Source: an uncultured Actinomycetes bacterium
Lineage (GTDB): Bacteria; Actinomycetota; Actinomycetes; Nanopelagicales; Nanopelagicaceae
Reading direction: 5' to 3'
Assembly (NCBI GenBank): GCA_903863015.1
Contig: CAIPAI010000013.1
Coordinates: 1-64,000, forward strand
DNA: 64,000 bases
Shown: piece after piece, positions 47,372-64,000 of the stretch
Layout of the letters: each line of letters opens with the position of its first letter
Numbering within the stretch: the stretch's first letter is position 1
Notes under the pieces: model-generated
What the model was told of the DNA's origin: nothing
The model's input: only the letters and a program-made list of their open reading frames with translations
Database searches by the model: none
Position numbers and translations under genes: made by a program

Positions 47372-48171
47372 CGACCCTCGCGGGCGAAGCCCACGATGCG
47401 CAACCCAAATTCCTGAGCCAGCTCAAGGGCTAAGGACGTGGGTGCCGAAACGGCGACGATGGACGACAAGCCGGCCACTACCGCTTTTTGCACGATCTCG
47501 AAACCGACTCTCCCCGAGAGCAGGAGCGTCCAGCCGGCTAGATCTGCGCCTTCGAGCATGCCAGCACCGATCGCCTTATCCACCGCGTTATGGCGTCCCA
47601 CGTCTTCTCTCACAAATCGCAACACACCGTGCTCATCTACAAGCGCCACCCCGTGGAGAGCACCGGTCTTGGCAAAGAGGCGCTGCTGCGGTTTCAACGC
47701 ATCGATAAGTGCCACTTCTTCTTCAAACGTGCGTCTTGCCGTTGGCACGCGCGAGATACCGCGTTCGTGCAGATCGCTCAGCGAGGTGCTTCCACAGACT
47801 CCGCAAGCAGATGAAATCGTAAACCGTCGATCGAGTACACGCGCCGGTTGAAGTACGGAGTCCGCCAGCTCAACGATGACCACATTTGCACGTTGCCGTG
47901 GGGTGAGCGATCTATCTGCGCAGACACGCGCCTGCAACACGTCACCTCTGGCAGAGATCAAGCCTTCGCTCAGAAGGAACCCAACGGCCAGTTCTAAATC
48001 ATTTCCTGGAGTGCGCATAGTGATAGCCACTCGCGTTTCAACCTCGCGCTGCGCTATACGGATTTCAAGCGGCTCCTCCACAATGACGCTCTCAAGCGTC
48101 TTGCCACGGTCGCTTCTCATTGCAGATACGCGCGCAATAGCGCTCGGCGCGACGGAACTCTCGTCAGCCAC
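47353..48171 (-). CDS. fdhD: Formate dehydrogenase accessory sulphurtransferase FdhD
   Basis: This 272-residue protein (GTG start at 48171, just past the betA stop; an ATG at 48120 is the alternative, and the longer frame to 48258 lies inside betA) has EEPLEIRI, MRTPGNDLELAVGFLLSEG, the CxxC motif in SSACGVCGS and REDVGRHNAVDK. FdhD passes sulphur to the molybdenum or tungsten cofactor of formate dehydrogenase. No fdh structural gene is in the window, but the one-carbon genes around fit formate as a product. The C-terminal residues come from a tandem repeat. Confidence 0.92.
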   Translation of the reverse strand: MADESSVAPSAIARVSAMRSDRGKTLESVIVEEPLEIRIAQREVETRVAITMRTPGNDLELAVGFLLSEGLISARGDVLQARVCADRSLTPRQRANVVIVELADSVLQPARVLDRRFTISSACGVCGSTSLSDLHERGISRVPTARRTFEEEVALIDALKPQQRLFAKTGALHGVALVDEHGVLRFVREDVGRHNAVDKAIGAGMLEGADLAGWTLLLSGRVGFEIVQKAVVAGLSSIVAVSAPTSLALELAQEFGLRIVGFAREGRGTEYC

Positions 48172-48172
48172 G

Positions 48173-49816
48173 CTACGCCTTGGTGTGTCGATAGAAAGGG
48201 ATCGATTCCGGGGCGAGCGGAGTGTTTCCAAGAATAAGATCTGCAGCCTTCTCCGCAACCATCATCACAGGTGCGTAGATATTTCCATTCGTTACATATG
48301 GAAAGACCGAAGCATCCACCGCGCGTAAACCCTCGACTCCATGAATGCGCAGGGTTTTTGGGTCCGTTACTGCCATTGCATCAGTTCCCATTCGAGCAGT
48401 ACAAGAAGGATGAAGGGCAGTCTCGCCATCTTTACGCACCCAATCGAGAATTTCTTCATCAGTGGCCACAGATGGGCCAGGAGATGACTCACCACCGTTG
48501 TAATCATCCATCGCATGTTGACTCAAAATCTTGCGAGCCACGCGAATTGCTTCAACCCATTCGCGACGATCTTGATCCGTCGAAAGATAGTTAAATTGAA
48601 GTGCTGGCTTCTCTAATGGGTCAGCACTCTTGATCCGCACACTCCCCCGAGCATCCGAATACATAGGCCCGATGTGTACTTGATATCCGTGCCCACCGGC
48701 TGGCGCAGTACCGTCGTAACGGATGGCCAAAGGCAGAAAATGAAACATGAGGTTGGGGTAAGCAACATCTTCGTTGCTGCGCGCAAAGCCGCCGCCCTCA
48801 AAATGATTAGTAGCGCCAGGGCCCTTACGGAAGAAGAGCCAATTAGCTCCGATAAAGGGACGCTTCCACATCATTAAGTTTGGTTGCATAGAAACTGGCT
48901 TGTTGCATTTGTACTGCACGTAAACCTCGAGATGATCTTGGAGATTTGCGCCGACACCTGGGAGATGGTGGACCGGTTCAATTCCCACACCGTTGAGATA
49001 TTCAGCATCTCCAACACCTGAGAGTTGCAGGATCTGTGGAGTATTAATAGCTCCTCCGCAGAGAATGATCTCTTTCCCTGCGATGATTTCGCGCTTCTTC
49101 CCGCGAATTACTTCAACGGCTATCGCACGCTTACCTTCAAAGAGCACTTTGGCGACTTGAGAACGCGTCTTCACAGTGAGGTTCTTGCGATGCATCACTG
49201 GATGCAAGTAGGCACGAGCAGCGCTGAGCCGGCGTCCACGGTAAACATTGCGATCGAAAGGACCAAAACCTTCTTGGCGAAATGAGTTAACGTCGGGCGT
49301 GCGCGCATAGCCGGCCTCTTCGGCAGCTGTAAAGAATGCTTCAAAGAGTGGACTCTTCATGGGGCCGCGCTCTAACTTCAAAGGTCCGGAATCTCCATGG
49401 AACGGATTCGTAGGATCAGCGAGACAATTCTCTAGTTTTTTGAAATACGGCAAGCAGTGCGCGTAATCCCAATTTTCCATTCCGGGATCTGCTGCCCAAC
49501 GCTCATAGTCGAGAGGATTTCCACGCTGCCAAATCATGCCGTTGATACTGCTTGATCCGCCCAAGACTTTCCCGCGTGCATGATAAATCTTTCGGTTGTT
49601 CATGAAGGGCTCTGGCTCGGACTCATATTTCCAGTCGTAGAACTTACTACCGATGGGGAATGCGAGCGCTGCCGGCATATGGATGAATACATCCCACCAA
49701 TAATCTGGGCGGCCAGCTTCAAGAACTAGAACTTCATTCTTAGGATCAGCACTGAGACGATTTGCTAACGCAGATCCCGCAGAACCACCACCGACGATAA
49801 TGAAGTCGTAACTCAT
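48173..49816 (-). CDS. betA: GMC-family oxidoreductase, probable choline dehydrogenase
   Basis: This 547-residue flavoenzyme has the FAD motif [18 protein letters not shown], the GMC signatures [17 protein letters not shown] and [16 protein letters not shown], and the C-terminal catalytic His/Asn region (HPSCTARMG ... [16 protein letters not shown]). It fits BetA-type enzymes that oxidise choline to betaine aldehyde and partly on to betaine. Other GMC enzymes oxidise alcohols such as polyethylene glycol, so the call leans on the betaine transporter and aldehyde dehydrogenase nearby. It is downstream of folD by 7 bp. Confidence 0.85.
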
Positions 49817-49823
49817 CCGAGCC

Positions 49824-50741
49824 TCAAGCGCCCTGGTCGCTTTGTTGGTCGCTTAAACGGGCATGTCGGTGAGCACGTTCAAGACTCTCCACCACATTGG
49901 TAATGAGCATGGCGCGCGTCATCGGACCCACGCCTCCAGGCATCGGCGCCATAAATCCTGCAACATTCATCACGTCAGGATGTATATCTCCGACCAAGCC
50001 AGCTTCCGTGCGCGTGATGCCCACGTCAAGAACAGCAGCGCCCGGCTTCACCAGATCTGCAGTGATCATGTGCGGAACTCCAGCAGCCGCCACGATGATG
50101 TCGGCCTCACGGAGGTATTGCGCAGGATTCTTCGTTCCCGTATGCACCAAAGTTACGGTGGCATTCTCACTCTTGCGTGTCAACAACAGGCCCAGCGGCC
50201 GACCAACAGTTACACCGCGACCAACAACAACCACATGCGCGCCGTTAATGGGAACTTCGTAGGCACGAAGCAACTCGACAATTCCACGCGGAGTGCATGG
50301 GAGTGGGGCTTCTTGACCCAACACCAAACGCCCCAGATTCATCGGGTGTAAACCATCAGCATCTTTTTCGGGATCCATGGCTTCTAGAGCAGCGATGGAA
50401 TCTAAACCTTTGGGCAACGGAAGCTGAATGATGTAACCGGTGCAGAGAGGGTCTGCGTTAAGTCGCGCTACCTCGCGCATGACATCAGCTTGAGAGGCGT
50501 TCGCTGGAAGATCAGCGCGCACTGAGGCAATGCCCACTTCGGCGCAATCGCGATGCTTGCCGGCTACGTACGCGTGTGAACCTGGATCATCGCCAATCAA
50601 CATGGTTCCAAGGCCTGGAGTAAACCCAGCGGCGCGTAATACCTCTACCCGCTTGGCCAAATCTGCTTTCACCTTCGCAGCGAGCGCCTTGCCGTCAAGT
50701 AGAACTGCCCTACCTGAGCCAGTACTAGAGCCAGTAGTCAT
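49824..50741 (-). CDS. folD: Methylene-THF dehydrogenase / methenyl-THF cyclohydrolase
   Basis: This 305-residue bifunctional enzyme converts methylene-THF to formyl-THF with NADP. The Rossmann motif [17 protein letters not shown], the cyclohydrolase YVAGKHRDC (with the Lys) and the C-terminal [14 protein letters not shown] are present. The ATG at 50741 overlaps the cysteine synthase end by 17 nt. Here it may take the methyl-derived C1 unit from the corrinoid pathway one step further towards formate. Confidence 0.94.
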
Positions 50742-51609
50742 TGATGTACTTCTCACCTTCATCGCAGAAAAATGTTACGACGTTCTCAACGCCGTGCTTC
50801 TCTTTCAACATCTTAGCCGCCAATAGGTGCGCACCCGATGAAGGTCCAACGAAGATTCCATGCTCCCGGCCTAAACGTCGCATCTCCTCGATCGAGACAT
50901 CCGATTCGATGTGGCAGACGTCATCAAGGATGTCGCGATGGCGAGCGATAATTCCGGGGATAAAGCCATCAGCGATGCCCTCAATGAGGTGCTTACCAAT
51001 TTCTCCGCAGAGGATCGTGCATGACTCACTCGGCTCCATCGCTACCACGATGCACTGAGGATTGACCGCCTTGAAGGCTTGACCCACACCGACGATGGTG
51101 CCACCCGTACCCACGCCACCAATCACCAAGTCGGGAATAACACCCGAAGGCAATTGGCGGAGGATCTCTTGGCCAAGCCACTCACGGTTCTCATCAACAT
51201 TCCATTCATTATCAAATTGTTGTGGCGCAAAATAGCCTGGCTGTTCACCGATTCGACGAACTTCAGCGAGCGCATCGTTCACATGAAAATCGCCCATGGT
51301 GTGCACTTCGGCGCCGAATGCTCGTGAGATGGCCGTCCGCTCGGGGCTCATACCGTTGGGCATCACCACCAGCATCTTGTAGCCCTTGACGGCGGCGACC
51401 ATGCTCATGGCATTGCCGGTGTTACCACTACTCGCTTCCACAATCGTGTCGCCCTTTTTGAGCAATCCTTCGCGCTCTGCACGTTCGATCATGAACTTGG
51501 CGATGCGGGCTTTGATAGAGCCGGACGGATTGAGGTACTCCATCTTGACCCAGATACCTTCAATGTTGATGAGTGGGGTATTGCCAATCGCATCAAGAAT
51601 GGTCTCCAT
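50725..51609 (-). CDS. Cysteine synthase-family PLP enzyme (CysK-like)
   Basis: This 294-residue fold-type II enzyme has the PLP Lys in [17 protein letters not shown] and [13 protein letters not shown]. It is a second cysteine synthase, distinct from the CysM at 26 kb. An AGGAGCG site 6 bases upstream supports the ATG at 51609. It starts the operon with folD, betA and fdhD. O-acetylserine sulphhydrylase or a related beta-replacement is likely; why it sits with choline and C1 genes is not clear. Confidence 0.88.
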
Positions 51610-51696
51610 CGAACGCTCCTTACTCTTTGTACTTCTCAATTATTCAGCCTTGAAAGTTTCCCATGAATTGCTCGCAAACGCCCTTTCAAGGAAGCA

Positions 51697-51742: not shown

Positions 51743-52708
51743 CTAGTTACCCAGCCAGGCCTTAACTTTGTCAGGGTTGGCAGCGATCCACTTATTTGCT
51801 GCCTCTGCTGGTTTCATGCCGCCTTCGATATCTGCTGATACCGAATTCTGATCCGCATTTGTCCAGTTAAAGTTCTTAACGATGGTTGCAAAGACTGAAT
51901 TAGAATCCATCAGTTTCTTCGATGCGAGCTTCTTGAGTGCCGTCTCTGGGTAATCAGTCAGTCCGCTTGCCTTAGCAGCATCTGACCAATCATTGGCCGG
52001 GAACTTCACGCGAGATTGCTCGAGACCAGGAATCTTAATGAAGAGAGTTCCTGGAGTGTAGAAATATGCAAGCGCTGGAGTCTTATTAGCTTCAGCCTTG
52101 GTGAGCACGTCTACGAGTGCAGCTTCTGAACCAGTTGAAATAGCTTTGTAATTCAACTTGTTAGCAGAAATCATCTTTTCGCCGATCGTGGTGTAACCAG
52201 GAGGGCCTTCATACCAAGCGCCCTTGCCGCCGGAGTCAGAAGTCTTGAACATATCCGCATACTTATTCAAGTTAGCTGAGTCCAAGATGTCTGGATACTT
52301 AGCAGCCATCCATGGTGGTACATACATACCGATAAGACCGATATTGCCGTTGTCGCCTACTTCAACAACAGATCCACGATCTACCCATTCTTTCCAACGC
52401 CCGCCGCCCCAATCTTCGATGATCAAATCGATGGTGCCAGCTTCCATAGCGTCATAGGTGACGCCTGCTTCTTCCAGGGTTGTTTGTGTGATGGTGCATC
52501 CATTTGCCTTGGCTACTTCAGCAACAACTTGTGCCGATGCTGTATAGCCATTCCATGCATGCATTGCTACTGCCCAAGTTCCGCACTCGCTAGCTGCACT
52601 TGCGCCTTCTGCGCTGTCGTTAACACTTGAGCTACATCCGGCAAGTACAAGTGCACCTGCAGCGATAATCGAAGCCGTCGCAATGCGACGTCTCTGGCTA
52701 AATATCAT
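51743..52708 (-). CDS. proX: Glycine betaine/choline ABC transporter substrate-binding lipoprotein
   Basis: This 321-residue lipoprotein has the lipobox LVLAGC (Cys25) and an OpuAC-type fold with Trp-rich segments (AVAMHAWNGYT, EDWGGGRWKEW, GMYVPPWMA), suited to caging a quaternary ammonium group by aromatic residues. An AGGAGAG site just upstream sets the ATG at 52708. It is the last gene of the leftward operon; ATPase and permease precede it. Confidence 0.9.
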   Translation of the reverse strand: MIFSQRRRIATASIIAAGALVLAGCSSSVNDSAEGASAASECGTWAVAMHAWNGYTASAQVVAEVAKANGCTITQTTLEEAGVTYDAMEAGTIDLIIEDWGGGRWKEWVDRGSVVEVGDNGNIGLIGMYVPPWMAAKYPDILDSANLNKYADMFKTSDSGGKGAWYEGPPGYTTIGEKMISANKLNYKAISTGSEAALVDVLTKAEANKTPALAYFYTPGTLFIKIPGLEQSRVKFPANDWSDAAKASGLTDYPETALKKLASKKLMDSNSVFATIVKNFNWTNADQNSVSADIEGGMKPAEAANKWIAANPDKVKAWLGN

Positions 52709-52799
52709 GTCTCTCCTCTTGTAAGGTTTTAGCAACCACTGCGAGCGTAATATAGGCAGTCACCGCAGGTAAGGGGTTCAGCGGGTGTTTTCCGATTTT

Positions 52800-54728
52800 T
52801 TAAGTTCGCCGAGCACTGGCTTGGGCAATTCGGTCAATAGTCACGCCTAGAAGCAAGATTGCGAATCCGGCTACAAGTCCCTTCCCTTGCAAGTCGGGCT
52901 TCGAGCCGCCCAAGATTACTAAGTAACCGAGGCCGCCTGAGCCAACAAACCCACCAATAACAACTACCGCCAAGACAAAGATCATCCCCTGATTAGTTGC
53001 CAGGAGTATTGCTTTTTTCGCGGCCGGCAATTGCACTTTGGTAATTATCTGACGGACCGTTGAACCTGCGACAGTGGCGGCTTCGATCATCGCTACTGGC
53101 ACAGCACGAATCCCTTCACTGACAATCTTCACAACCACTGGAATCGAGTACACGATGCCGGTCGCGATCGCTGTAAATCTCGTAGGGCCGAAGAGTCCAA
53201 GCATGGGAATCAAATAGACAAAGGCAGGAAGGGTCTGTCCGGCATCCAAGAAGGGTCTCAAGATTCTTTCTGCACGTACGCTTCGACCCACCCAGATCCC
53301 AAGTGCGATACCGATAGACATCGTCAGCAAAGTTGCCACGATCGTTTGAGTTAACGTAATCATCGCCTCATGCCATAGGCCAGAAAGAACAATCAATGCA
53401 AGCAACCCCGTAGCCAACATTGCCACTCGGATTCCTCCAATGACAGCGGCAATGAGAACGATGGCAGACAAGGTGACGAACCAAGGTGAAAATGCCAGAA
53501 GGGTTTCAATAGGATTGAGTACCCAGTTAGAAATGAAATCCTTGAAGCCGACTGTAAATATATAAAGGTTTGTGGTCACCCATTTGGTGACGTGATTAGT
53601 GACATCTTCTACTTGTTGCGCAATATTGATTGACCCTGGCCACACAGCAAGCGAAAGCACGGAGCGCGAGGCAAAGATGGCCGCAATGGCCGCTAACCCA
53701 GCGAGGCCTCGCTTAATGCGTCCTCTTTGAATCTGTTGCGAAGTCATCGGGATGAAACCTTCTTGCGCCTTCGCCGCGGCACTCGTGCTCCGGTCAAGCA
53801 AAATTGCCACAAAGACCACTGCAAATCCAGCCACAAATCCCTGTCCGACGTTCCTGATGATGAGCGCATCGACCACAGGTTTACCGAGACCTGGCGCACC
53901 GATCAATGCTGCGATAACTACGAACGAAAGTGCAGCCATCACTGTTTGATTGACACCCAGGATAATCATTTGCTTCGCCATCGGAAGTTGCACTTTGGTC
54001 AAAGTCTGCTTCGGGGTAGACCCCATCGAGAGCGCGGCCTCGATCGGTGACTGATTTAAGTTTCTGATCGCATGAGCAGTGATGCGGATTGCAATGGGGA
54101 TGCTGTACACCATCGTTGCAATCGTGGCGGAGGCAGTACCAATCAGAAAGAAGAGAGCGAGCGGGGCCAAATAAACCAGCGTCGGCAAAATCTGAGCCAG
54201 GTCTAGAAATGGCGTCAATATCTTTAATACGCGATCAGAAAGACCCGCCCATATGCCCAATGGAATGCCGAAGAGCAGAGAGAGTAGGACCGAGGCAAGG
54301 GTCATAGCGAGAGTGTCCATAGTGAATTGCCACATTCCCAACGCGCCACAAGCTAACAGGAGCGAGACGGCAAGTAAGGCGGTGCGGAGCTTACTCGTGG
54401 CGTAAACGGCAAAGGCGACAATGGCCACCACGCCAAACCAGCCGATGACCGGAATAATGGAGTTACCGCTTGGCACCGAAATAATCGAACGAATGATTTC
54501 CACAAACCCATTTATCGCTGCACGAATGGGATTAAAGAAATAGATGAACGCGGCACTCTTCGTGCGATTGCCGCGAATAGAGGCGGCCACATCACCCACC
54601 GAAGTTGTGAAAGCCGTGTTATCAGACGTTGCCAATTCAAGAGTTTGATCACCTTGGAATATTCGGGAGAAGGCTATCCAGACCAATCCCACTCCGATTA
54701 AGAGATGTGACTTCTTGAAATGGCGCAT
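52800..54728 (-). CDS. proW: Double-length glycine betaine ABC transporter permease (two fused ProW domains)
   Basis: This 642-residue protein contains two complete ProW-type permease domains in one chain (about 65-310 and 410-635). Each has its own EAA loop: IEAALSMGSTPKQTLTKVQLP and IEAATVAGSTVRQIITKVQLP. Normal ProW is a single copy that dimerises, so this fusion is a covalent heterodimer. Its ATG directly follows the proV stop TAA with no spacer. It should form the membrane channel for betaine or choline uptake. Confidence 0.92.
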   Translation of the reverse strand: MRHFKKSHLLIGVGLVWIAFSRIFQGDQTLELATSDNTAFTTSVGDVAASIRGNRTKSAAFIYFFNPIRAAINGFVEIIRSIISVPSGNSIIPVIGWFGVVAIVAFAVYATSKLRTALLAVSLLLACGALGMWQFTMDTLAMTLASVLLSLLFGIPLGIWAGLSDRVLKILTPFLDLAQILPTLVYLAPLALFFLIGTASATIATMVYSIPIAIRITAHAIRNLNQSPIEAALSMGSTPKQTLTKVQLPMAKQMIILGVNQTVMAALSFVVIAALIGAPGLGKPVVDALIIRNVGQGFVAGFAVVFVAILLDRSTSAAAKAQEGFIPMTSQQIQRGRIKRGLAGLAAIAAIFASRSVLSLAVWPGSINIAQQVEDVTNHVTKWVTTNLYIFTVGFKDFISNWVLNPIETLLAFSPWFVTLSAIVLIAAVIGGIRVAMLATGLLALIVLSGLWHEAMITLTQTIVATLLTMSIGIALGIWVGRSVRAERILRPFLDAGQTLPAFVYLIPMLGLFGPTRFTAIATGIVYSIPVVVKIVSEGIRAVPVAMIEAATVAGSTVRQIITKVQLPAAKKAILLATNQGMIFVLAVVVIGGFVGSGGLGYLVILGGSKPDLQGKGLVAGFAILLLGVTIDRIAQASARRT

Positions 54729-55796
54729 TTAAGCGACACCAGAAATTAACCGCAAGACATCCTCGCTTGAGACGATACCCAGAACCTTCCCATTTTCAAT
54801 CACGCGCACTGGCTTGTGAGTTTGCAGGATAATTTCAGCCGCGTCTCGAATAATGATATTCGCAGCGAGTTCTGGACCATCGATATCGTCTCCCGGTTGA
54901 GCAGGGCGGGCCAAGTATCGCAAAGTCAACACATGGGACTTTGCGATATCCCGTACGAAATTCGCAACATAGTCATCGATGGGGTTAGCAACTAGTTCCT
55001 CGGGCGTTCCAATTTGAACAACTGCCCCATCTCGCATAATCGCAATACGATCCCCGACTTTTACTGCTTCAGATAAATCGTGAGTAATGAAGACCATTGT
55101 TTTACCTAATTCACGATGCAGTCGGATGATCTCTTGCTGCATGTCACGCCGAATAAGTGGATCTAGAGCACTGAAGGGTTCATCTAGAAATAGCACCTGT
55201 GGGTCTACGGCCAGTGCGCGCGCTAAGCCAACTCGTTGCTGCATTCCACCGGAGAGCTGTTCTGGAAACGCATGCGCATATCCATGCAAACCAACAAGTT
55301 CAATTACTTCATTTGCGCGGGCATGGCGCTCGGTCTTTTTCATCCCATTGATCTCAAGCGGATAGGCGATATTGTCGATCACCTTGCGATGTGGCAACAA
55401 ACCGAAGTGCTGGAAAACCATAGAAAAGTGTTGCCGACGAAGTTCACGTAGCCGTTGGGGTGTCGCTTTCGAAATATCCTCGCCGTCTAGAAAAATTTCG
55501 CCGGCGGTAGGTTCAACCAACCGAGTGAGGCAACGAATCAAAGTCGATTTACCAGAACCGGATAAACCCATCACCACAAAGACTTCGCCCGGGGCTACGT
55601 CAAAAGAAACATCGCTGACAGCGGCCGTGCAACCAGTCTTGGCGCGCAACTCACTCCGCGAGAGCTTCGCATCGGGCGAGCCCACGATCGAAAGTGGGTT
55701 TGGCCCGTAGACCTTCCATAAGCCGCGCACCGAGACGGCGGGAGGATTGCTAGCCAATGAGCCACCAGCGCCTGCACTGCTCTTGCCGTCGACCAT
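54729..55796 (-). CDS. proV: Glycine betaine ABC transporter ATP-binding protein with CBS domains
   Basis: This 355-residue ATPase has Walker [25 protein letters not shown], Walker [13 protein letters not shown] and the switch His in [10 protein letters not shown]. The C-terminal part (about 250-355) is a CBS-like region ([38 protein letters not shown]), which in ProV/OpuA senses ionic strength or nucleotides. An N-terminal helix precedes the core, as in OpuAA. It starts downstream of the 15-bp repeats. Confidence 0.94.
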
Positions 55797-55819
55797 GCTC
55801 TCCCCTACAGCTCGTCTGT

Positions 55820-55974: not shown

Positions 55975-57462
55975 CTACTCGGACGAATGGCCGCCATCGC
56001 GAAACCATCCAGAACGCCCTGGGGAAGTATTGCGCCAGAGGTGCTTGGCTTCAAGGTACTCGTGTAGTCCGCTTCCGCCGAGTTCCCGCCCCACGCCCGA
56101 TGCTTTAAATCCGCCCCACTCAGCCTCGGGGCGGTAGGGGCCGTAATCATTAATCCAGATGGTGCCATGGCGCAGAGCCGCCGCTACGCGATCGCACTTG
56201 GCTGCATCGCTGCTCCATACGGCGCCGGAGAGGCCATAGATCGTGTCGTTTCCGAGGCGAATTGCTTCAGATTCGGAAGTGAAACTCTCCACCGTGATGA
56301 TTGGCCCAAAGGATTCATCTTGCACGCAACTCATCGTGGTCGTGCAACGATCGAGCACGGTCGGTTCGAAGTACCACCCTTGCTCAAGTCCAATACCTGA
56401 GGCGCGCTTTCCCCCGATCAACACTTGGGCACCTTCGCTGATCGCTCGAGACATATATCCAAGTACTTTGTTGAGATGACCTTCACTAATAAGTGGTCCG
56501 GTCTCGGCAGTTGCATCATCAGGACCGCCCAACGTGATGAGCCCAGCTCGACGTGTTAATTCGCTTACTACCTGATCGTGAATGGATGCTTCTACTAAGA
56601 GGCGCGTGCCGGCCGAACATACTTGCCCCGAGTGTAGAAAGCCGGCAGTGACTGCGTTATCGATCGCCGCATCAAGATCGGCATCAGCAAAGATTATGTT
56701 GGGATTCTTGCCACCCAACTCCAGTGCAACTTTCTTCACCGTGGCGGCGGCGCTTGCCATGATGTGCTTTCCCGTCTGCAATCCACCAGTGAAGGAAACC
56801 AGATCAATGCGCGGATCAGTTGTGAGTGGTGCACCTACTTCGCTGCCAGCGCCAAGAATTAAATTCGCCACTCCTGCAGGTACGCCAGCCTCGACAAGCG
56901 TGTGCATAAGCAAGACTGCGGTTGACGGAGATAACTCACTCGGCTTGACGATGAAGGAGCAACCCGCCAAGAGCGCGGGCGCTACTTTCCACGAGATTTG
57001 TAGCAAAGGATAATTCCACGGACCGATAAGTGCGCACACTCCAACTGGTTCATAAGCGATGCGGCTAGAAATTTCACTTCGGCCGACATCTACCGAATGA
57101 CCCGGTTCTGAAATGGTGGCATTGAAACGAAAGACGGAAATGACATCAGCGATGTCGTATTCGGCCTCAATTAATCTCTTAGCGGTATCTCCGCTTTCGG
57201 CCGCCGCGTAAATATTGAGGTCTCGCTCGATTAAATCTGCCACGCGACGCAAGAGCGCTTGCCGATCTTGCCAACTCCATGAACGAAAGGCTCCGCCATC
57301 GAATGATGCGCGTGCGGCGACAATCGCCTGCAGAGCATCTGCCGCATCACCTTCAGTGGCAGTAGTCACCACATGCTGATCGTGCGGACTACGGATTTCC
57401 CGTACACGACCAGTGGCGCTCTCTTGCCACGTACCGTTGATGAAATGGCGCAAGAGAGTCAT
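55975..57462 (-). CDS. betB: Aldehyde dehydrogenase, probable betaine aldehyde dehydrogenase
   Basis: This 495-residue ALDH has PWNYPLLQISWKVAPALLAG, the Glu motif LELGGKNPNIIFADAD and the catalytic Cys in HSGQVCSAGTRLLVEA. The segment GTIWINDYGPYRPEAEWGGFKASGVGRE fits BetB-like enzymes. It starts 4 bp after the methyltransferase gene and would oxidise betaine aldehyde to glycine betaine, complementing BetA at 48 kb. The betaine assignment rests on context. Confidence 0.88.
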   Translation of the reverse strand: MTLLRHFINGTWQESATGRVREIRSPHDQHVVTTATEGDAADALQAIVAARASFDGGAFRSWSWQDRQALLRRVADLIERDLNIYAAAESGDTAKRLIEAEYDIADVISVFRFNATISEPGHSVDVGRSEISSRIAYEPVGVCALIGPWNYPLLQISWKVAPALLAGCSFIVKPSELSPSTAVLLMHTLVEAGVPAGVANLILGAGSEVGAPLTTDPRIDLVSFTGGLQTGKHIMASAAATVKKVALELGGKNPNIIFADADLDAAIDNAVTAGFLHSGQVCSAGTRLLVEASIHDQVVSELTRRAGLITLGGPDDATAETGPLISEGHLNKVLGYMSRAISEGAQVLIGGKRASGIGLEQGWYFEPTVLDRCTTTMSCVQDESFGPIITVESFTSESEAIRLGNDTIYGLSGAVWSSDAAKCDRVAAALRHGTIWINDYGPYRPEAEWGGFKASGVGRELGGSGLHEYLEAKHLWRNTSPGRSGWFRDGGHSSE

Positions 57463-57466
57463 GAGA

Positions 57467-58906
57467 TTAGAAGGCTAGTTCACTCTTGCGACGAGCCATG
57501 AAATCATCGAGCTCTGCGAGCACCTGTGCGTCCATCTCCGGAAGCACATACTCTTCGAGCTTCTTCTTCCAGATATCTGCTGCCCGATCCTTCGTATCTT
57601 TTGCTCCAAGGCGATTCCAACGTTCGAAGTTATCGCTATTGGTGAGGAATGGGCGATAGAAGCAATCACGGAAGCGCTCCATGGTGTGGGCGGCACCAAG
57701 GAAGTGACCACCGGCACCTACTTCTTGGTGCGCATCAAAGGCCAGGCTGCCCTCATCGAAAACAAGTGGCGTGAATTGCACGATGAGGTTCTCCAAAATT
57801 TCCATATCGAGGATGAACTTTTCGTAGCAGGAGACCAATCCACCTTCGAGCCAGCCAGCAGTGTGCATCACCCAGTTAGTTCCCGAAAGGAAGGTCGGCA
57901 TCATCGTCATCATTGTTTGATAGGCCGATTGTGCGTCAACTGTTTGTGCGGAGTTCAATCCCCCACCACCACGAAATGGCAAGTGATACTTGCGGGCGAT
58001 CTGACCAGTACAGAGCAATCCCACGCCAGATTCCGGAGTTCCAAATTGTGGAGAACCCGATTGCATATCGATGTTCGAGAGGAACGAACCAAAGACCACT
58101 GGTGCACCTGGACGAATCAATTGCACGAGCGCAATTCCCGTGAAAGCTTCTGCCATTTGTTGAGCCAATGTGGAAGGAATGGTAACCGGACTCATCGCGC
58201 CCATCAGCAAGAATGGAGTGACGACCACAGGTTGGGCGGCAAGGGCATACTCGCGAAGCGAATCAAGCATGCGGTCATCCCAGCGCAACGGAGAATTGCA
58301 GTTGATCAGCGAAATGAGTGCGGGCATCTCTTCGATCGCTGCGCGTCCACCATGCAAAATTTCGGCAACTCGAATGCAATCTTGCGCATTCTCGGCGCGC
58401 ACCACATTGCCCATGAAGAACTTGTCCGTCAACGTCGCCGCTGCATAAGCCATATCAAGGTGACGAGTATCTAAATCAAGGTCGTTAGGCTCACACACCA
58501 CGCCACCGACGCTGTCTAGCGAACCAAAGACTTGCGAAAGTTTGGCAAAGTTCTGGAAGTCATTGAATGTGGCGTCTCGCCTCACGTCACCTTCGCGCAC
58601 AAAGGGTGGTCCATACACGGCGCCGAAAACCATGGCGTCTCCGCCAATGCGCACATTGTTCTTCGGGTTACGAGCGCGCAAACCAAACTCACTAGGAGCT
58701 TTCGCTAATTGTGCGAGCACCCAGTCCGGATCAAACTTCACGTTATCCCCGGAAACGTCTTGTCCCGCCTCGCGGAATAGATCGAGAGCCCATGGGCTCA
58801 TGAATTCGATACCAATCTCCGAAACAATTCTGCGCCAACCGGCATCCAACGTCGCCATCGACTCTTCGCTGAGAATGTCGTAGCGGGGCATCTTATTTTC
58901 GAACAT
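57467..58906 (-). CDS. Non-pyrrolysine MttB-family corrinoid methyltransferase, probable glycine betaine methyltransferase (MtgB-like)
   Basis: This 479-residue protein belongs to the trimethylamine methyltransferase superfamily (COG5598). It is full-length with no in-frame UAG, so it lacks the pyrrolysine of true MttB. Characterised non-Pyl members demethylate glycine betaine (MtgB of Desulfitobacterium), proline betaine, carnitine and related amines. Family segments include FKFD-like NVKFDPDWVLAQL, GGDAMVFGAVYGPPFV, FGSFLSNIDMQSGSPQFG and EVGAGGHFLGAAHT. A GGAGG site overlaps the ATG-ATG start; the second ATG gives better spacing. The betaine transporter in the same operon favours glycine betaine. 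Confidence 0.9.
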   Translation of the reverse strand: MFENKMPRYDILSEESMATLDAGWRRIVSEIGIEFMSPWALDLFREAGQDVSGDNVKFDPDWVLAQLAKAPSEFGLRARNPKNNVRIGGDAMVFGAVYGPPFVREGDVRRDATFNDFQNFAKLSQVFGSLDSVGGVVCEPNDLDLDTRHLDMAYAAATLTDKFFMGNVVRAENAQDCIRVAEILHGGRAAIEEMPALISLINCNSPLRWDDRMLDSLREYALAAQPVVVTPFLLMGAMSPVTIPSTLAQQMAEAFTGIALVQLIRPGAPVVFGSFLSNIDMQSGSPQFGTPESGVGLLCTGQIARKYHLPFRGGGGLNSAQTVDAQSAYQTMMTMMPTFLSGTNWVMHTAGWLEGGLVSCYEKFILDMEILENLIVQFTPLVFDEGSLAFDAHQEVGAGGHFLGAAHTMERFRDCFYRPFLTNSDNFERWNRLGAKDTKDRAADIWKKKLEEYVLPEMDAQVLAELDDFMARRKSELAF

Positions 58907-58916
58907 CATTCCTCCA

Positions 58917-58944
58917 TTGACCGGTGGCTGGCTGCGACTATACG
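58917..58944 (+). promoter_or_regulatory. Candidate promoter for the IclR–corrinoid operon
   Basis: TTGACC (58917-58922), a 16-bp spacer and TATACG (58939-58944) on the plus strand. The IclR-type palindrome begins 9 bases downstream, where a bound repressor would block transcription. Confidence 0.45.
58937..58942 (-). promoter_or_regulatory. Candidate -10 element for the methyltransferase operon
   Basis: On the minus strand TATAGT lies about 30 bases before the methyltransferase start and overlaps the -10 of the opposing promoter. No clear -35 is visible; the IclR palindrome occupies that place. Confidence 0.4.
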
Positions 58945-58953
58945 CTAGAGTCG

Positions 58954-58980
58954 TGGAACATTGGTTCCATATGGTGGAAC
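58954..58980. promoter_or_regulatory. IclR-type operator with three half-sites
   Basis: A perfect 16-bp palindrome TGGAACATTGGTTCCA (58954-58969) is followed by a third GGAAC half-site (58976-58980). IclR-family boxes commonly have the form TGGAA-N-TTCCA. It lies between divergent operons, one starting with an IclR gene. Confidence 0.65.
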
Positions 58981-59040
58981 TTCCCGCCCGGGAGGAATCC
59001 ACCTCCACGATCCAGCTGATGTGACGCACGGGGAGGTTCG

Positions 59041-59847
59041 ATGGCCAGCTCAGGTGCAAAGCCTGCTGCCTCTTTAGCGGCCGCACCGAGCGCCACTTCG
59101 CCCACCGGAGCGCAATCAATCGATCGCGCCGGAGCACTCTTAGTCTCGATTCTTGATAGCGGCACCGCAAGTGGCCGTCCGCCTCATGTCGCCACGCTCG
59201 CACGAACCCACGATCTTCCCAAGAGCACTACCTCACGTCTGCTTTCGGCTCTAGAACGTCAAGGCTTAATTCAACGCGACCGGGATGGCGCCTTCCACCC
59301 TGGCCCTGTCATCACGCGTTATGCACGCAGCGGCCAAGGTGAGTCCGCTCTTGCCACCGAATTACATCCCATCTTGGCGCGCCTGGCCCAAGAGAGTGGC
59401 GAAACCGTAAATCTCGCAGTTGCTGGCGCGCAATTCGTGGACTTAATTGATCAAGTCGACGGAAGATACTTGCTGGGTGCCCGGAATTGGATTGGCACGC
59501 CAGTGCCCTACCACGCCTCTGCCCTGGGAAAAATCTTCATGGCCTATGGAGTGACCGAGATTCCGTCGGGGCGCTTAGAGAAGCGCACTCCATTCACGTT
59601 AACGTCGCAAGAGAGTTTGCGCGCTGAGCTCGCCAAAGTACGAGCAGAGGGATTTGCAACAATCGTCGACGAATTAGAAGAAGGGCTCACCGCCATTGCG
59701 CTTCCAGTCTTCGATAGCGCACAGCGAGTAGTAGCAGCTATCTCCATCTCGGGGCCCTCTTCACGATTAAGTAGCAACACCATTAACGAAATTGTTCAAA
59801 AAATGATCAAAGCAATCGGACTACCAGGAAAGGCAGGCGCAGCATGA
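59041..59847 (+). CDS. IclR-family transcriptional regulator
   Basis: This 268-residue protein has a winged helix at about 30-90 (VATLARTHDLPKSTTSRLLSALERQGLIQRD) and an IclR effector domain (about 110-265; YHASALGKIFMAYG, EEGLTAIALPVFDS). The N-terminus is Ala/Ser-rich and longer than usual. It heads the corrinoid operon (ATGA overlap with the next gene) and probably binds the palindrome upstream of itself, answering to betaine or a breakdown product. Confidence 0.92.
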   Translation: MASSGAKPAASLAAAPSATSPTGAQSIDRAGALLVSILDSGTASGRPPHVATLARTHDLPKSTTSRLLSALERQGLIQRDRDGAFHPGPVITRYARSGQGESALATELHPILARLAQESGETVNLAVAGAQFVDLIDQVDGRYLLGARNWIGTPVPYHASALGKIFMAYGVTEIPSGRLEKRTPFTLTSQESLRAELAKVRAEGFATIVDELEEGLTAIALPVFDSAQRVVAAISISGPSSRLSSNTINEIVQKMIKAIGLPGKAGAA

Positions 59848-60509
59848 GCGCAGAAGAAATTATCAAGGGGCTCTATGACGAAACGCTCGTCGGAAATGCA
59901 CCTGCCGTTCTTGAACTCACGAAGCGAGGCCTGAGCGAAGGCATGGGTCCCGACACTATTCTCTTCGAGGCACTCATCCCAGCCCTTGAAGAAGTGGGCG
60001 CGCGATTTGAACGCGGGGACTTCTTCGTTCCTGAAATGTTGATTGCCGGCAAAGCAATGTCAGGCGCACTCGATGTTCTCCGCCCCCTCCTTGCTGAGAC
60101 GGGTGCTGAAACAATCGGCACCTTTGTCATGGGAACGGTCAAGGGCGATGTTCATGACATTGGCAAGAATCTCGTCAACATCATGCTCGAAGGCGCCGGT
60201 TTTGAAGTCATTGACCTTGGCGTACAGACCTCACCAGAGAAGTTCATCGCAGCGGTCGAAGAACATAAGCCCGATATCGTGGGCATGTCGGCATTTCTTA
60301 CAACCACAATGCCAATGTTCAAAGTCAACATGCATGAACTCACCAAAGCCGGATTACGCGACAAAGTAATCGTGATGGTCGGTGGCGCACCTGTCACTCA
60401 GGAATATGCAGACGCCGTTGGCGCAGATGGATATGCCGCCGATGCTTCAACCGCAGTTCGCAAAGCCAAGGAGTTAATTGCCCTGAAGCGGGCTGCTCAA
60501 AATGCCTAA
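59844..60509 (+). CDS. Corrinoid (methylamine methyltransferase-type) protein
   Basis: This 221-residue protein carries the methyl group on cobalt. A helical cap domain (about 1-88) is followed by a B12-binding Rossmann fold with GDVHDIGKNL (D102, H104, G107), where His104 should be the lower axial ligand, then GMSAFLTTTMPMFK and VGGAPVT. It matches the MtgC/MttC family. It accepts the methyl group from the MttB-family protein and passes it to THF via the methyltransferase three genes on. Confidence 0.95.
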   Translation: MSAEEIIKGLYDETLVGNAPAVLELTKRGLSEGMGPDTILFEALIPALEEVGARFERGDFFVPEMLIAGKAMSGALDVLRPLLAETGAETIGTFVMGTVKGDVHDIGKNLVNIMLEGAGFEVIDLGVQTSPEKFIAAVEEHKPDIVGMSAFLTTTMPMFKVNMHELTKAGLRDKVIVMVGGAPVTQEYADAVGADGYAADASTAVRKAKELIALKRAAQNA

Positions 60510-60897
60510 GTTGCTCCCGATCATTGAGTTTCTTGAGCATGGAATCAAGAAACCAATTTGGGATTGCCAGATGTGCGGTCAATGCGTGCTTCACTCAACT
60601 GGCATGACATGTCCAATGACATGTCCTAAAACGTTACGCAATGGTCCGTGTGGTGGCGTGAGAGAGAATGGTCATTGTGAAGTGAAACCAGAAATGCGAT
60701 GCGTCTGGGTGAAGGCATATGACCGTAAAGAGTCGCTCCCACTTCCACAATCGTGGCGCAATCATTACAACGATCTTCGCCCACCGGTTAATAACCAGTT
60801 AAAGGGCACCTCTTCTTGGATAAATTTGATCACGAAGCGTGATCAAGCCACCCCCGCGGGATGGAACGTCGAAAGCGCCGCGCAGGAAAGTCTGTGA
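60502..60897 (+). CDS. MetV-like zinc/Cys-rich methylene-THF reductase partner
   Basis: This 131-residue protein matches the stand-alone MTHFR C-terminal family (MetV in acetogens). Eight Cys (C22, C25, C28, C37, C41, C50, C59 and C67) lie in CQMCGQC, TCPMTCP and NGPCGG segments, likely binding zinc or an Fe-S cluster. Partner proteins of this kind act with MetF. It overlaps the corrinoid gene by 8 nt and is itself overlapped by metF. Confidence 0.87.
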   Translation: MPKLLPIIEFLEHGIKKPIWDCQMCGQCVLHSTGMTCPMTCPKTLRNGPCGGVRENGHCEVKPEMRCVWVKAYDRKESLPLPQSWRNHYNDLRPPVNNQLKGTSSWINLITKRDQATPAGWNVESAAQESL

Positions 60898-61823
60898 GCC
60901 AAAGAGTGAATAACTTCCCTTCGCGACTGGCCGAACGTTTCTCAACAAGCGAACGAGTTTTTACCGTCGAGTTCCCCGCCATCGATGGAGGAAATCTCTC
61001 TGCCGTGAAGAGTCGGGTAGATCATCTACTCCCCTGGTTCGATGCTGCCAACGCTACTGACAGTCCCGCAGCACATGCGCACGCCTCCAATGTGGCCATT
61101 GCAATTGCGCTACAACAATGCGGACTCGAACCGATTCTCCAAGTCGTCTGTCGCGACAAAAATCGCATCGCAATTCAGTCAGACATTATGGGCGCCGCAC
61201 TTCACGGCGTACGCAATATTGAATTACTCACGGGAGACGATGTCACCGCTGGAGATGAACCAGAAGCCAGGCGCGTCTTCGATATCGATAGTGCGCAAGC
61301 GATCAAGATCGCCGCGACCCTGAGGGAAGGCAGATACCTCTCAGGTCGGAAGTTCCCGGATGCTCCTGACCTCTTCATCGGCGCGGTGGAGAACGCAGCA
61401 GCTCCGCCGCTCGAATATCGAGCCGAAAGAGTTTCCAAGAAAGTCAGCGCAGGAGCTAGCTTCTTCCAATTGCAGATCTGTTTTCATGGCGATCGATTAG
61501 AGAAATTCGTGAGTGCCGTGAATGCCACCCATCCCAGCCTGCCCCTGCTCCCGACGATCGTGCTCGTGAAGGGCGCAAAAGCGCTTAAATTCATGAATGG
61601 GAACGTGGCCGGGATCGATATTCCAGCCGAAATCATCGCCCAAGTGGAGCAGGCCAGCGACCCTAAAGAGGCTGCCTACCAACTCGCCCGTGCCCAAGCA
61701 GAGCATGCCCTCTCCCTTCCAGGCGTGCGAGGCATCCATTTCACTGACTTTTGCCATGACGATTCACTTGTACGCTTAATGCGAGATCTTGGCGTCACTC
61801 CCCGCTCCATAGGAAAGAGCTAG
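60894..61823 (+). CDS. metF: MetF-like methylene-THF reductase
   Basis: This 309-residue protein is a divergent MTHFR-type TIM barrel: VFTVEFPAIDGGN at the start (the E-F-P pattern), IEALTGDD-like NIELLTGDDVTAGDEP and the ASFFQLQICF flavin/THF region. The GTG at 60894 overlaps the metV stop (GTGA) behind an AGGAAAG site. In this operon the enzyme would run oxidatively, turning methyl-THF into methylene-THF. Confidence 0.83.
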   Translation: MSQRVNNFPSRLAERFSTSERVFTVEFPAIDGGNLSAVKSRVDHLLPWFDAANATDSPAAHAHASNVAIAIALQQCGLEPILQVVCRDKNRIAIQSDIMGAALHGVRNIELLTGDDVTAGDEPEARRVFDIDSAQAIKIAATLREGRYLSGRKFPDAPDLFIGAVENAAAPPLEYRAERVSKKVSAGASFFQLQICFHGDRLEKFVSAVNATHPSLPLLPTIVLVKGAKALKFMNGNVAGIDIPAEIIAQVEQASDPKEAAYQLARAQAEHALSLPGVRGIHFTDFCHDDSLVRLMRDLGVTPRSIGKS

Positions 61824-61878
61824 ATCTCGAATGGAAAGACGAATAAAGAGATAGAGCTCAACTAGCGAAGGAAGATTG

Positions 61879-62742
61879 ATGCATACCGTTCTTTCATCTC
61901 CAGGTAAGACCGTCACCATGGGTCACGACCAACCGTTTGTGATCATTGGTGAGCGCATCAACCCCACTGGGCGAAAAATCTTCCAAGAAAAGTTGCGAGC
62001 AGGAGATCTCTCCACCATCAATATCGACGTAGAGGCACAAGTCGCTGGCGGCGCTGATGTGCTCGATGTGAATATGGGAGTGCCTCTTACCGACGAGCCC
62101 GCGCTTTTGGCATCGGCAATCAAACTCGTGCAATCAATCACCGACTTGCCTATTTGTATTGACTCTTCAGTCCACGAAGCACTGGAAGCAGGCTTAGCCG
62201 TCTACCAAGGCAAAGCGCTCGTCAACAGCGTCACCGGCGAAGACGATCGGATGGAGATCATTCTCCCGTTAGTTAAGAAATATGGCGCTGCCATCATTGC
62301 GCTACCCAATGATGAGACCGGCATACCTGCGACAGCTAAAGAACGTCTCGATATCACTGAAAAAATCGTGCGAGCTATCGAATCGTACAAAATTCCATTG
62401 GAAGATCTCGTCATCGATCCCCTCGCTATGACAGTGGGAGCAGATCCAGAAGCAGTGAAGATCACTCTTGAAGCGATCCACCTCATCAAAGAGAAGTTCG
62501 GTCTCAATATGACGCTTGGCGCTTCTAACGTCTCTTTTGGTCTGCCAAGCCGCCACGCATTAAACGCCGCCTTCCTACCCATTGCCATGTCGCACGGACT
62601 CACCAGCGCTGTCATGGACGCCCGCACTCCAGAAATCGTCAATTCTGTCCGCGCAGCAGATCTCTTGCTAGGGACCGACGCGTGGGGTGGAAATTGGATT
62701 GGCCGTTTCCGCGCACAACAAGCTGCCAACCCAAGCGCCTAA
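61879..62742 (+). CDS. Methyl-THF:corrinoid methyltransferase (MtgA/MeTr-like)
   Basis: This 287-residue pterin-binding TIM barrel has GERINPTGRKIFQ, DVNMGVPLTDE, CIDSSVHEALEAGL, DPLAMTVGADPEA and GASNVSFGLPSRH, all typical of AcsE/MtgA-type enzymes. It moves a methyl group between the corrinoid protein and THF. An AAGGAAG site lies 8 bases before the ATG at 61879; a TTG just before it is less likely as start. It follows metF by 55 bp. Confidence 0.93.
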   Translation: MHTVLSSPGKTVTMGHDQPFVIIGERINPTGRKIFQEKLRAGDLSTINIDVEAQVAGGADVLDVNMGVPLTDEPALLASAIKLVQSITDLPICIDSSVHEALEAGLAVYQGKALVNSVTGEDDRMEIILPLVKKYGAAIIALPNDETGIPATAKERLDITEKIVRAIESYKIPLEDLVIDPLAMTVGADPEAVKITLEAIHLIKEKFGLNMTLGASNVSFGLPSRHALNAAFLPIAMSHGLTSAVMDARTPEIVNSVRAADLLLGTDAWGGNWIGRFRAQQAANPSA

Positions 62743-62765
62743 CTTGATCGCATCGAGAGGTACGC

Positions 62766-64000
62766 ATGAGTAACGACGGAAGGATCAAACTTACCTTCGT
62801 CGAATTAGGGAAGGCTGATACTTCTCCACGCCAAGTTTCGGTGCCAAGTGGAGTCTCACTCTTTGAGGCAGCATCATGGAATGGAATTGCTATTGATTCC
62901 ACCTGTGGCGGCCATGGAACCTGTAAGAAGTGCAAGGTGAAAATTGAGAACCCTGCCATTCCGACCAGCTTAGATAGTCGAGCCTTTAACGCTGAAGAAT
63001 TGCGCGAAGGGTGGCGCCTCGCCTGCGTCCAAAAGGCAGTGGTCGATACTTCAGTCGATGTGCCACCACTCACGACTCGGCCAAAAGCTGCCACTGTCGG
63101 AGTTGGACGACAAGTAATTCTCCGTCCGGCAGTGCAAAAACGCTATATAGAGCTCATCGAACCTACGCTTCACGATCAACGCACCGATATAGAACGCGTC
63201 CGCGACGCGATTTCAGATATTGAACCCCGCGCAGGTCTCGAAGTCCTTCGATTACTTCCAACGATGCTGCGAAAATCTAACTTCAAGGTAACGGCCGTCC
63301 TCATCGATGACGAAATCATTGATATTGAACCAGGCGATACCACCGCCACTCGTTACGCAATTGCTTATGACTTAGGAACGACCACCGTCGTAGCCACACT
63401 GTTAGATCTCTCTACCGGAACTCCAGTGGCAGTTGCTTCCATGCTCAACAAACAACAGCCTTTTGGTGCAGACGTCATTAGCCGAATCAGCGCCACCATG
63501 ATGGACCCAGCGGCCCTGGGCCGCCTCCGAGTGCTCGCGCAAGAAACCCTGGCTGAACTCACCCGCGAAGTCTGCGAAAGCATCGACCCACTTCAGGTGT
63601 ACGAAGTCGCCCTTGCCGGAAATGCCACGATGACGCAATTGCTACTTGGTATCGACCCTGAACCACTCGGCGTCGCGCCCTTCATCATGGTGAGTGCCAT
63701 CTTCCCCGATGTCGCCGCCAGCGAGCTGGGAATCGATATTCATCCACGCGCAAAGGCTTTCCTCATGCCGTCGCTCGGAGCATACGTGGGCGGTGACATT
63801 ATCTCTGGAGCACTCGCTTCCGGAATGGATCGAGACAAACGCCTCCGCCTCTTCATCGACGTGGGAACTAATTGCGAAATCATTCTTGGCGATGGTGAGA
63901 AGATTTTGGCGACCGCAGCACCCGCGGGCCCCGCATTCGAAGCAGCTTCAATTAAATGCGGAGTGCGAGCCGCCCCAGGTGCGATCGAAACCGTCAAGAT
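62766..64000 (+). CDS. RACo-type corrinoid-activation protein, partial at right edge
   Basis: The frame opens at the ATG at 62766 and is still open at the window end (411 codons seen). The N-terminus is a plant-type 2Fe-2S domain with Cys at about 47, 53, 56 and 87 (STCGGHGTCKKC ... RLACVQ). A linker leads into the ASKHA-like DUF4445 region: YDLGTTTVVATLLDL, GADVISRIS, LAGNATMTQLLLG, GAYVGGDIISGALAS and DVGTNCEIILG. RACo proteins reactivate oxidised Co(II) corrinoid to Co(I) with ATP. It is 23 bp after the methyltransferase, completing the demethylation set. Confidence 0.92.
   Translation, partial: MSNDGRIKLTFVELGKADTSPRQVSVPSGVSLFEAASWNGIAIDSTCGGHGTCKKCKVKIENPAIPTSLDSRAFNAEELREGWRLACVQKAVVDTSVDVPPLTTRPKAATVGVGRQVILRPAVQKRYIELIEPTLHDQRTDIERVRDAISDIEPRAGLEVLRLLPTMLRKSNFKVTAVLIDDEIIDIEPGDTTATRYAIAYDLGTTTVVATLLDLSTGTPVAVASMLNKQQPFGADVISRISATMMDPAALGRLRVLAQETLAELTREVCESIDPLQVYEVALAGNATMTQLLLGIDPEPLGVAPFIMVSAIFPDVAASELGIDIHPRAKAFLMPSLGAYVGGDIISGALASGMDRDKRLRLFIDVGTNCEIILGDGEKILATAAPAGPAFEAASIKCGVRAAPGAIETVK

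Follow-up and report, generated by a model that had tools for sequence, protein, structure and literature searches.

I found that an island of two divergent operons in an uncultured acI actinobacterium (Nanopelagicaceae; assembly GCA_903863015.1, 1.94 Mb in 65 contigs, 99.5% complete) encodes an MttB-family methyltransferase, a corrinoid protein (MtgC), a methyltetrahydrofolate:corrinoid methyltransferase (MtgA), a RACo-type activator and MetF/MetV. The window covers positions 1 to 64,000 of contig CAIPAI010000013.1 (C13; 76,719 bases). It is quite likely that the island is a choline and glycine betaine catabolic unit whose shared corrinoid core doubles as a split methionine synthase; the substrate, the direction of flow, the regulation and the dual function are inferred. 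It also seems likely that, in acI, which are abundant bacteria of fresh water, the corrinoid core of betaine demethylation has replaced the methionine synthase MetH in about a quarter of the sampled species (26/112); this would unite B12 uptake, osmolyte catabolism and methionine synthesis in a single system. To my knowledge, this would be the first such MetH replacement in Actinomycetota.

A preliminary description of this DNA, made from its letters, had named a non-pyrrolysine (non-Pyl) MttB, a corrinoid protein with an intact DVHDIG motif, MtgA, a RACo-type activator and MetF/MetV, and had placed them in two divergent operons. Pfam and NCBIfam matches revealed all five components where they had been put, with DVHDIG at residue 102 of MtgC, and the gene order agrees with two opposite operons. 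As shown in Table 1, the minus-strand operon runs from 58909 down to 47353 in the order MttB, BADH-like aldehyde dehydrogenase (ALDH), ABC ATPase, fused permease, OpuAC-type substrate-binding protein (SBP), pyridoxal phosphate (PLP) enzyme, FolD, BetA and FdhD. The plus-strand operon has the order IclR, MtgC, MetV, MetF, MtgA and RACo, followed by DUF1638 outside the window. The earlier reading of an amine demethylation system in an aerobic actinobacterium stands as to the gene set, respiration and a quaternary amine as the likely substrate. Its premise that such sets belong to anaerobes is outdated, since aerobic corrinoid-dependent demethylation of glycine betaine was published for Ruegeria pomeroyi in 2025 (PMC12478193; this and the other papers cited by PMC number are used here in excerpt). 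The island is also larger than was described: the choline-oxidation half, the IclR regulator and the link to methionine had been missed.

Three features of the minus-strand operon point to a quaternary amine: a BetA above its equivalog cut-off, the BADH-like ALDH and an ABC transporter of the choline/betaine type. Together, they argue for glycine betaine made from choline. Curated NCBIfam cut-offs are passed by BetA, FolD, the ABC ATPase, FdhD and MtgA. The names of the ALDH, the permease, the SBP, MtgC, MetF and RACo rest on Pfam domains, best matches and context, and the PF12225 protein is presumably MetV. The open reading frame of MttB opens at GTG 59203, and the homologous protein begins at ATG 58909.

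Table 1. Genes and candidate operator of the island (window positions unless stated otherwise)
Feature	Position	Strand	Evidence
MttB-superfamily non-Pyl methyltransferase (MtgB-like), predicted glycine betaine:corrinoid methyltransferase	57467..58909	-	PF06253 612.6 bits
Candidate IclR-type operator TGGAAC-N4-GTTCCA, intergenic between both operons	58954..58969		one match in the window, 0 mismatches (0.13 expected at up to 1 mismatch)
IclR-family regulator	59041..59847	+	IclR_C 126.6 bits, HTH_IclR 33.3 bits
MtgC-like corrinoid protein	59844..60509	+	B12-binding 107 bits, cap domain 58 bits, DVHDIG
MetV (presumed), partner of MetF	60502..60897	+	PF12225 91.5 bits
MetF-type methylenetetrahydrofolate reductase	60861..61823	+	PF02219 93.8 bits
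MtgA/MtgD methyltetrahydrofolate:corrinoid methyltransferase	61876..62742	+	Pterin_bind 99.9 bits; NF005719 313.8 bits, cut-off 259 passed
RACo-type corrinoid activator, truncated by window end (contig end 64592)	62766..64000	+	RACo_middle, RACo_linker, RACo_C_ter, Fer2
DUF1638 gene, beyond window	contig 64596-65300	+	DUF1638 72.8 bits
BADH-like ALDH	55975..57462	-	Aldedh 505.6 bits; top NCBIfam TIGR01804 (BADH) 525.9 bits, below cut-off 668.6
Betaine/proline/choline ABC transporter ATPase (ProV-type)	54729..55796	-	TIGR01186 359.1 bits, above cut-off 326.6
Fused ABC permease, two BPD_transp_1 stretches	52800..54728	-	top NCBIfam choline permease TIGR03416 341.5 bits, below cut-off 363
OpuAC-type SBP	51743..52735	-	OpuAC 109.6 bits; best solved relative 4xz6 81 bits; choline SBP model 43.3 bits against cut-off 379
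PLP enzyme, cysteine-synthase-like	50725..51639	-	PALP 231.3 bits; TIGR01136 270.1 bits, below cut-off 344
FolD, methylenetetrahydrofolate dehydrogenase/cyclohydrolase	49824..50762	-	NF010789 462 bits, above cut-off 401
BetA choline dehydrogenase	48173..49816	-	TIGR01810 845.8 bits, above cut-off 732.1
FdhD, formate dehydrogenase accessory protein	47353..48258	-	TIGR00129 155 bits, above cut-off 140.9

Is MtgC also needed for methionine? In the genome of this bacterium, MtgC is the sole match to PF02607, and PF02310 is found in MtgC and in a 139-residue frame (by eye, presumably like the small subunit of a mutase) and in no other protein. A MetE (PF01717) was not found in this genome. Two PF02574 proteins are encoded. 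One of them, on contig C28, is 43% identical to the Sinorhizobium meliloti protein annotated bmt, which I take to be the protein equated with MtgE by Mausz et al.; it scores up to 165 bits against MetH N-domains and 65 bits against BHMT. Separate homocysteine-, folate- and B12-binding proteins are therefore co-resident in this genome (MtgE on C28, MtgA and MtgC in the island). A split methionine synthase of the roseobacter kind, here in Actinomycetota, is thus the probable second role of MtgA and MtgC.

I surveyed 112 genomes of the family with at least 90% completeness. A PF02607 match in a frame of at least 600 residues was counted as MetH, and a match above 50 bits in a frame of 225-279 residues as MtgC; weaker PF02607 matches in longer frames were taken for other B12 proteins and left out of the count. 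The matches of G525 and G532 (46 and 42 bits; frames of 306 and 298 residues) were accordingly counted as not MtgC, and both genomes have MetH and lack MtgE. In summary, MetH was found in 82 genomes, a stand-alone MtgC in 34 and an MtgE, by homology, in 34. MetH alone is present in 73 genomes, MtgC and MtgE without MetH in 25, and all three in seven. The remaining combinations are MetH with MtgC (1), MetH with MtgE (1), MtgC alone (1), MtgE alone (1; G001, where the contig stops inside the neighboring IclR gene) and none of the three (3). Thus, 74 genomes have MetH without MtgC, 26 have MtgC without MetH, eight have both and four have neither. MtgE accompanies MtgC in 32 of 34 genomes and is missing from 76 of the 78 genomes without MtgC. 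The genus g16 is divided into 24 MetH genomes and 21 MtgC genomes, with no genome having both or neither. MetE was found in three of the 112 genomes, with a full-length frame in one. The MtgC genomes without MetH include three single-contig genomes (G484, G487 and G521) and belong to the genera g1, g7 and g16, and it is possible that the MetH/MtgC state changed more than once across the family. This alternation is what the split synthase of Phaeobacter and the MtgBCDE system of Ruegeria would predict (PMC5764234, PMC12478193).

The island itself is well conserved. Among 60 relatives, the own genome included, an MttB match was found in seven, namely in all four genomes of the genus at 95-100% identity and in three further genera of this family at 78-80%. 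Six relatives in four genera share the island order up to the limits of their contigs. A sample of the phylum gave MttB matches in 65 of 396 genomes, counting the one studied here; among the matches listed nearly all have 22-47% identity, with the exception of G264 at 53-67%. A scan of named relatives, limited to the best 80 of 151, gave a close group of loci at 78-96% identity (L045-L099) and a distant group at 67-73% (L100-L124). The distant group includes isolates of Nostocoides jenkinsii, Planobispora siamensis, Planobispora takensis and Nocardioides jiangsuensis, and MttB, MtgC, MtgA, RACo and DUF1638 are all found in the Nocardioides and Planobispora isolates. In the close group, 30 loci extend 9 kb or more downstream of MttB, and all of them have genes for the ALDH, the ATPase, the permease, the SBP and BetA; FdhD is present in 25 of them and FolD in two. 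All 32 close loci with at least 7.5 kb upstream have IclR, MtgC, MetV, MetF, MtgA, RACo and DUF1638. The DxHxxG motif is intact in 32 of 32 MtgC regions of the family and in 69 of the 70 named loci with a match. A product of chance or of misassembly is excluded by this recurrence in many separate metagenome-assembled genomes and isolates. The gene for the PLP enzyme belongs to the choline operon in G016 and in the genus of the window, but only three of the 30 close loci of sufficient length have it.

A palindrome, TGGAAC-N4-GTTCCA, is most likely the operator of the IclR-type regulator, as the IclR gene adjoins it. It is the single match in the window, with no mismatch, where 0.13 matches would be expected at up to one mismatch. 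The palindrome was found in 53 of 53 usable loci of the close group and in seven of 23 of the distant group (four of the 80 loci were not usable), and in 31 of 32 MtgC regions of the family. It was found at none of 30 MtgE loci, none of 30 MetH loci and none of 17 genome-start stretches. A scan for promoters and terminators around the intergenic region gave results at chance level.

The MttB of the island is most similar, among solved structures, to 4yyc (423 bits), 2qne (408 bits) and 9yce (405 bits). The sequence of 4yyc is that of the S. meliloti MttB (474 of 474 letters equal to L236), and 2qne and 9yce, which I take to be the Desulfitobacterium hafniense protein, are 42% identical to the MttB of the island. 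The Pyl-containing MttB of Methanosarcina (7xcl) belongs to the same superfamily, with 122 bits and 26% identity. A Pyl-dependent MttB was ruled out, as had been claimed before, by a Leu in the Pyl column and by a TIGR02369 score of 249.6 against a cut-off of 525. In a tree of 47 hand-thinned sequences out of 115 (the short L043 and L044 were dropped), the MttB belongs to an actinobacterial clade of its own with 27 sequences and a support of 100/100; the tree program flagged long branches in the outer part. No grouping with a protein of another function was found among the characterized proteins in this tree, from which MtpB, MtcB and MtyB are absent.

Observations that weigh against the dual reading fall on both of its halves. 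On the methionine side, MtgE is missing from two of the MtgC genomes, and two further genomes with MtgE lack MtgC. In a core-gene tree of g16, a single change explains the MetH/MtgC pattern, with the two MtgC genomes joined at only 64/65. This tree is based on four neighboring core proteins (by eye, presumably including DnaA, DnaN and RecF) from nine g16 genomes and three outgroups; of 17 complete-genome start stretches, 12 were usable, and L244-L247 and L254 were dropped because some of the genes lay outside the stretch. Since a single change fits g16, the Fisher value of 1.7e-14 for the alternation overstates the independence of these related genomes. The second PF02574 protein of the genome, on contig C61, could make methionine from another donor. 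There is also a real tension between a regulator-controlled mtgC operon and a housekeeping duty in methionine synthesis; basal expression or activation by IclR could be a way out. The single change in g16, the second PF02574 protein, the lack of the palindrome at all 30 MtgE loci, and the streamlining of acI genomes with their lack of assimilatory sulfate reduction (PMC5301498) would suit an island that is catabolic only. The MtgC-only genomes would then obtain methionine by uptake or through the second PF02574 protein, and their loss of MetH would be coincidental streamlining. I regard this as unlikely, because the separately encoded MtgE tracks MtgC, because so few of the 112 genomes lack both MetH and MtgC (with G001, broken inside IclR, among the four), and because fitness data from Phaeobacter identify the same three proteins as a methionine synthase (PMC5764234). 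The converse, a role of MtgC in methionine synthesis only, was rejected as the whole story: MttB lies divergent to IclR-MtgC in all 34 family genomes with MtgC, apart from an additional G509 fragment in which this arrangement is not seen.

On the betaine side, the MttB clade lies outside both the D. hafniense MtgB and the S. meliloti type, and the substrate is for this reason taken from the genomic context. No named NCBIfam model of MtgC matches the MtgC of the island at its cut-off. The SBP is poorly conserved, with about 41-78% identity across genera. The distant loci are looser; of those with at least 9 kb downstream, eight of 14 have the ALDH and the transporter and just five of 14 have BetA, and of those with enough upstream sequence, seven of 12 have MetV/MetF and nine of 12 have DUF1638. 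Moreover, the relatives of MttB include enzymes for other quaternary amines (PMC12478193). MttB might thus use another methylated amine, such as choline, proline betaine, carnitine or a methylated amino acid, with the choline oxidation genes as mere neighbors. This appears improbable beside the constant presence of BetA, the BADH-like ALDH and the transporter in the close loci, and a glycine betaine methyltransferase (2qne/9yce) is among the closest solved structures. It might also be asked whether the corrinoid proteins work in the opposite direction, or provide acetogen-like methyl donation in anaerobic micro-niches, rather than aerobic catabolism. For MtgA and RACo, the best matches among solved structures are indeed proteins of corrinoid/iron-sulfur pathways, which I take to be from acetogens; the one for RACo is 3zyy (299 bits), an iron-sulfur cluster binding protein and presumably itself RACo. 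Such a role seems very unlikely beside two COX1 genes and a GlpD-type oxidoreductase in the genome, and beside MttB, MtgC, MtgA, RACo and DUF1638 in isolates of Nocardioides and Planobispora, which are aerobes. The same pathway is found in the aerobic Ruegeria (PMC12478193).

The betaine pathway with its methionine branch would proceed as follows. The ABC transporter would import choline or betaine, and BetA and the BADH-like ALDH would oxidize choline to glycine betaine. MttB would move one methyl group from betaine to Co(I) on MtgC, yielding dimethylglycine, and MtgA would hand the methyl group to tetrahydrofolate (THF). MetF/MetV and FolD may oxidize it towards formyl-THF and then formate, for a formate dehydrogenase served by FdhD; this accessory protein hints at formate oxidation. 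RACo, perhaps with DUF1638, would re-reduce Co(II), and a respiring cell could thereby sustain a cycle that depends on oxygen-sensitive Co(I). Cobalamin would enter through an energy-coupling factor (ECF) transporter. Dimethylglycine is probably oxidized by a flavoprotein resembling dimethylglycine dehydrogenase (DMGDH) encoded elsewhere in the genome. MtgA, MtgC and the MetH-like homocysteine methyltransferase MtgE from the other contig probably form a split methionine synthase that replaces MetH.

A B12 source, on which the preliminary description had made its reading depend, does exist. An adenosylcobalamin riboswitch (RF01482, 52.6 bits, above the gathering score of 50) lies directly upstream of genes for SCO2321/SCO2322-like proteins, CbiQ, a double ABC ATPase of the CbiO type and an S-component-like protein that is below the Pfam cut-off. 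A match to RF00174 in the same genome stays below its gathering score (30.2 against 31.5). Judging from these genes, B12 is probably imported via an ECF transporter. In each of four acI strains, no cobalamin pathway was found, but an ECF module and cobalamin/adenosylcobalamin riboswitches were (Kang et al., PMC5301498). Respiration, also claimed before, is supported by two COX1 genes in this genome. Also present are the GlpD-type protein (10313-11956) and the two FAD_binding_3 proteins (42369-43610 and 43839-45098) that had been pointed out. A protein with DAO, FAO_M and GCV_T domains, which I take to be the architecture of DMGDH/sarcosine dehydrogenase, is encoded on contig C41 beside allantoin genes. 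There (L132 553-4207), an allantoinase gene, an allantoicase gene and a weakly malyl-CoA-lyase-like gene adjoin the DMGDH-like gene, which suggests purine breakdown in the same bacterium.

Similar gene sets are known from Pseudomonadota. In Paracoccus aminovorans, MttB is divergent to MtgC-DUF1638-MetV-MetF-MtgA-activator, and in S. meliloti MttB faces the corrinoid protein, DUF1638, MetV, MetF and MtgA, with other genes interspersed. The D. hafniense MtgBCA system belongs to an anaerobe, its MttB falls into a different clade, and I know of no link between it and methionine synthesis. It shares with the island a non-Pyl MttB-family betaine methyltransferase, a corrinoid protein and a methyl-THF methyltransferase (PMC12478193). 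In R. pomeroyi, the pathway was characterized by mtgC and mtgD mutants and, for MtgB, by proteomics (PMC12478193). The MtgBCDE systems of R. pomeroyi and S. meliloti resemble the island in MttB, MtgC, MtgA/D, a RamA-like activator, DUF1638, MetF and methyl-THF oxidation, and MtgC and MtgD are shared with methionine synthesis there; many genomes with MtgBCD have no MetH (108 of 156), and 5% of marine mtgC reads were assigned to Actinomycetota (PMC12478193). In contrast, the island described here has an actinobacterial host, a separate MttB clade, an MtgC with 47% identity to its S. meliloti counterpart, and an IclR gene with a conserved palindrome. BetA, the BADH-like ALDH, the transporter and FolD lie in the same island, while DUF1638 is at the far end and MtgE on another contig. 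In Phaeobacter inhibens, PF02574, PF00809 and PF02607 with PF02310 are likewise on separate proteins, and RamA-like and DUF1638 proteins are implicated in B12 reactivation (PMC5764234). The evidence there is alphaproteobacterial fitness data, whereas here it is a phylogenetic profile alone.

Within acI, strain IMCC19121 (acI-A7; 1.506 Mb) is the sole one of four strains with formate dehydrogenase and molybdenum-cofactor synthesis, and Table 2 of the same report gives a glycine betaine/proline transporter for A7 only, provided that the signs of the table have the meaning used in the text (Kang et al., PMC5301498). In another study, betaine was predicted to be a nutrient of acI-B, and a betaine transporter was predicted for acI-A and acI-B (PMC5574706). 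In their excerpts, neither corrinoid demethylation nor a split methionine synthase is mentioned in the former report, and no corrinoid mechanism is mentioned in the latter.

Some other proteins and sequences were also noted. RACo has the Fe-S motif C-x5-C-x2-C. DUF1638 (L002 2704-3300) has an invariant Cys11, His39, Asp69-Cys70, Cys93 and Asp118, and it is possible that these residues form a metal or cluster site. Its AlphaFold model is a confident alpha/beta fold (pLDDT 92). No match was found for this model by Foldseek at E <= 0.001, and a DUF1638 profile gave nothing below E 0.8 against PDB sequences. The matches given by VIA-align, to regulators and to binding proteins with two lobes, were of middling quality (best Z 8.9) and support no assignment of function. 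A small PF13769 ('Virulence_fact') gene directly precedes the MtgE gene (L169 1205-1501 on C28), a similar small frame lies next to MtgE in all five loci examined, and a relative is found in the S. meliloti MttB locus. This protein seems more likely to act in the methyltransferase system than in virulence. Tandem repeats with units of 15-18 bases, in 4-8 copies with 85-100% matches, lie between genes or at gene starts (window 55819-55939; L002 2599-2703 and 4702-4765), and in this genome a SARVEG repeat stands at the start of the DUF1638 gene. Within a DUF222/HNH gene (window 40286-40374), the hexamer CGGGTG is repeated perfectly in 14.8 copies. The window also has a tmRNA gene (45281-45654) with the tag ANKTATDFALAA.

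Aerobic corrinoid demethylation of betaine is already known, in Pseudomonadota. Among the papers listed in searches of the open-licence PMC literature, no description of a corrinoid betaine system in acI was recognized. As far as that literature was searched, the complete system in acI actinobacteria, the single IclR-type palindrome and the MetH/MtgC alternation are new. If the reading is true, acI would link the turnover of methylated osmolytes with one-carbon oxidation and with the demand for B12 in fresh water, in the way put forward for roseobacters of the sea. A requirement for B12, and possibly for betaine, is suggested, which could aid cultivation. The alternation of MetH and MtgC within one family and one genus is a natural experiment on giving up a dedicated methionine synthase, and the switch, if true, would be testable inside a single family having both states.

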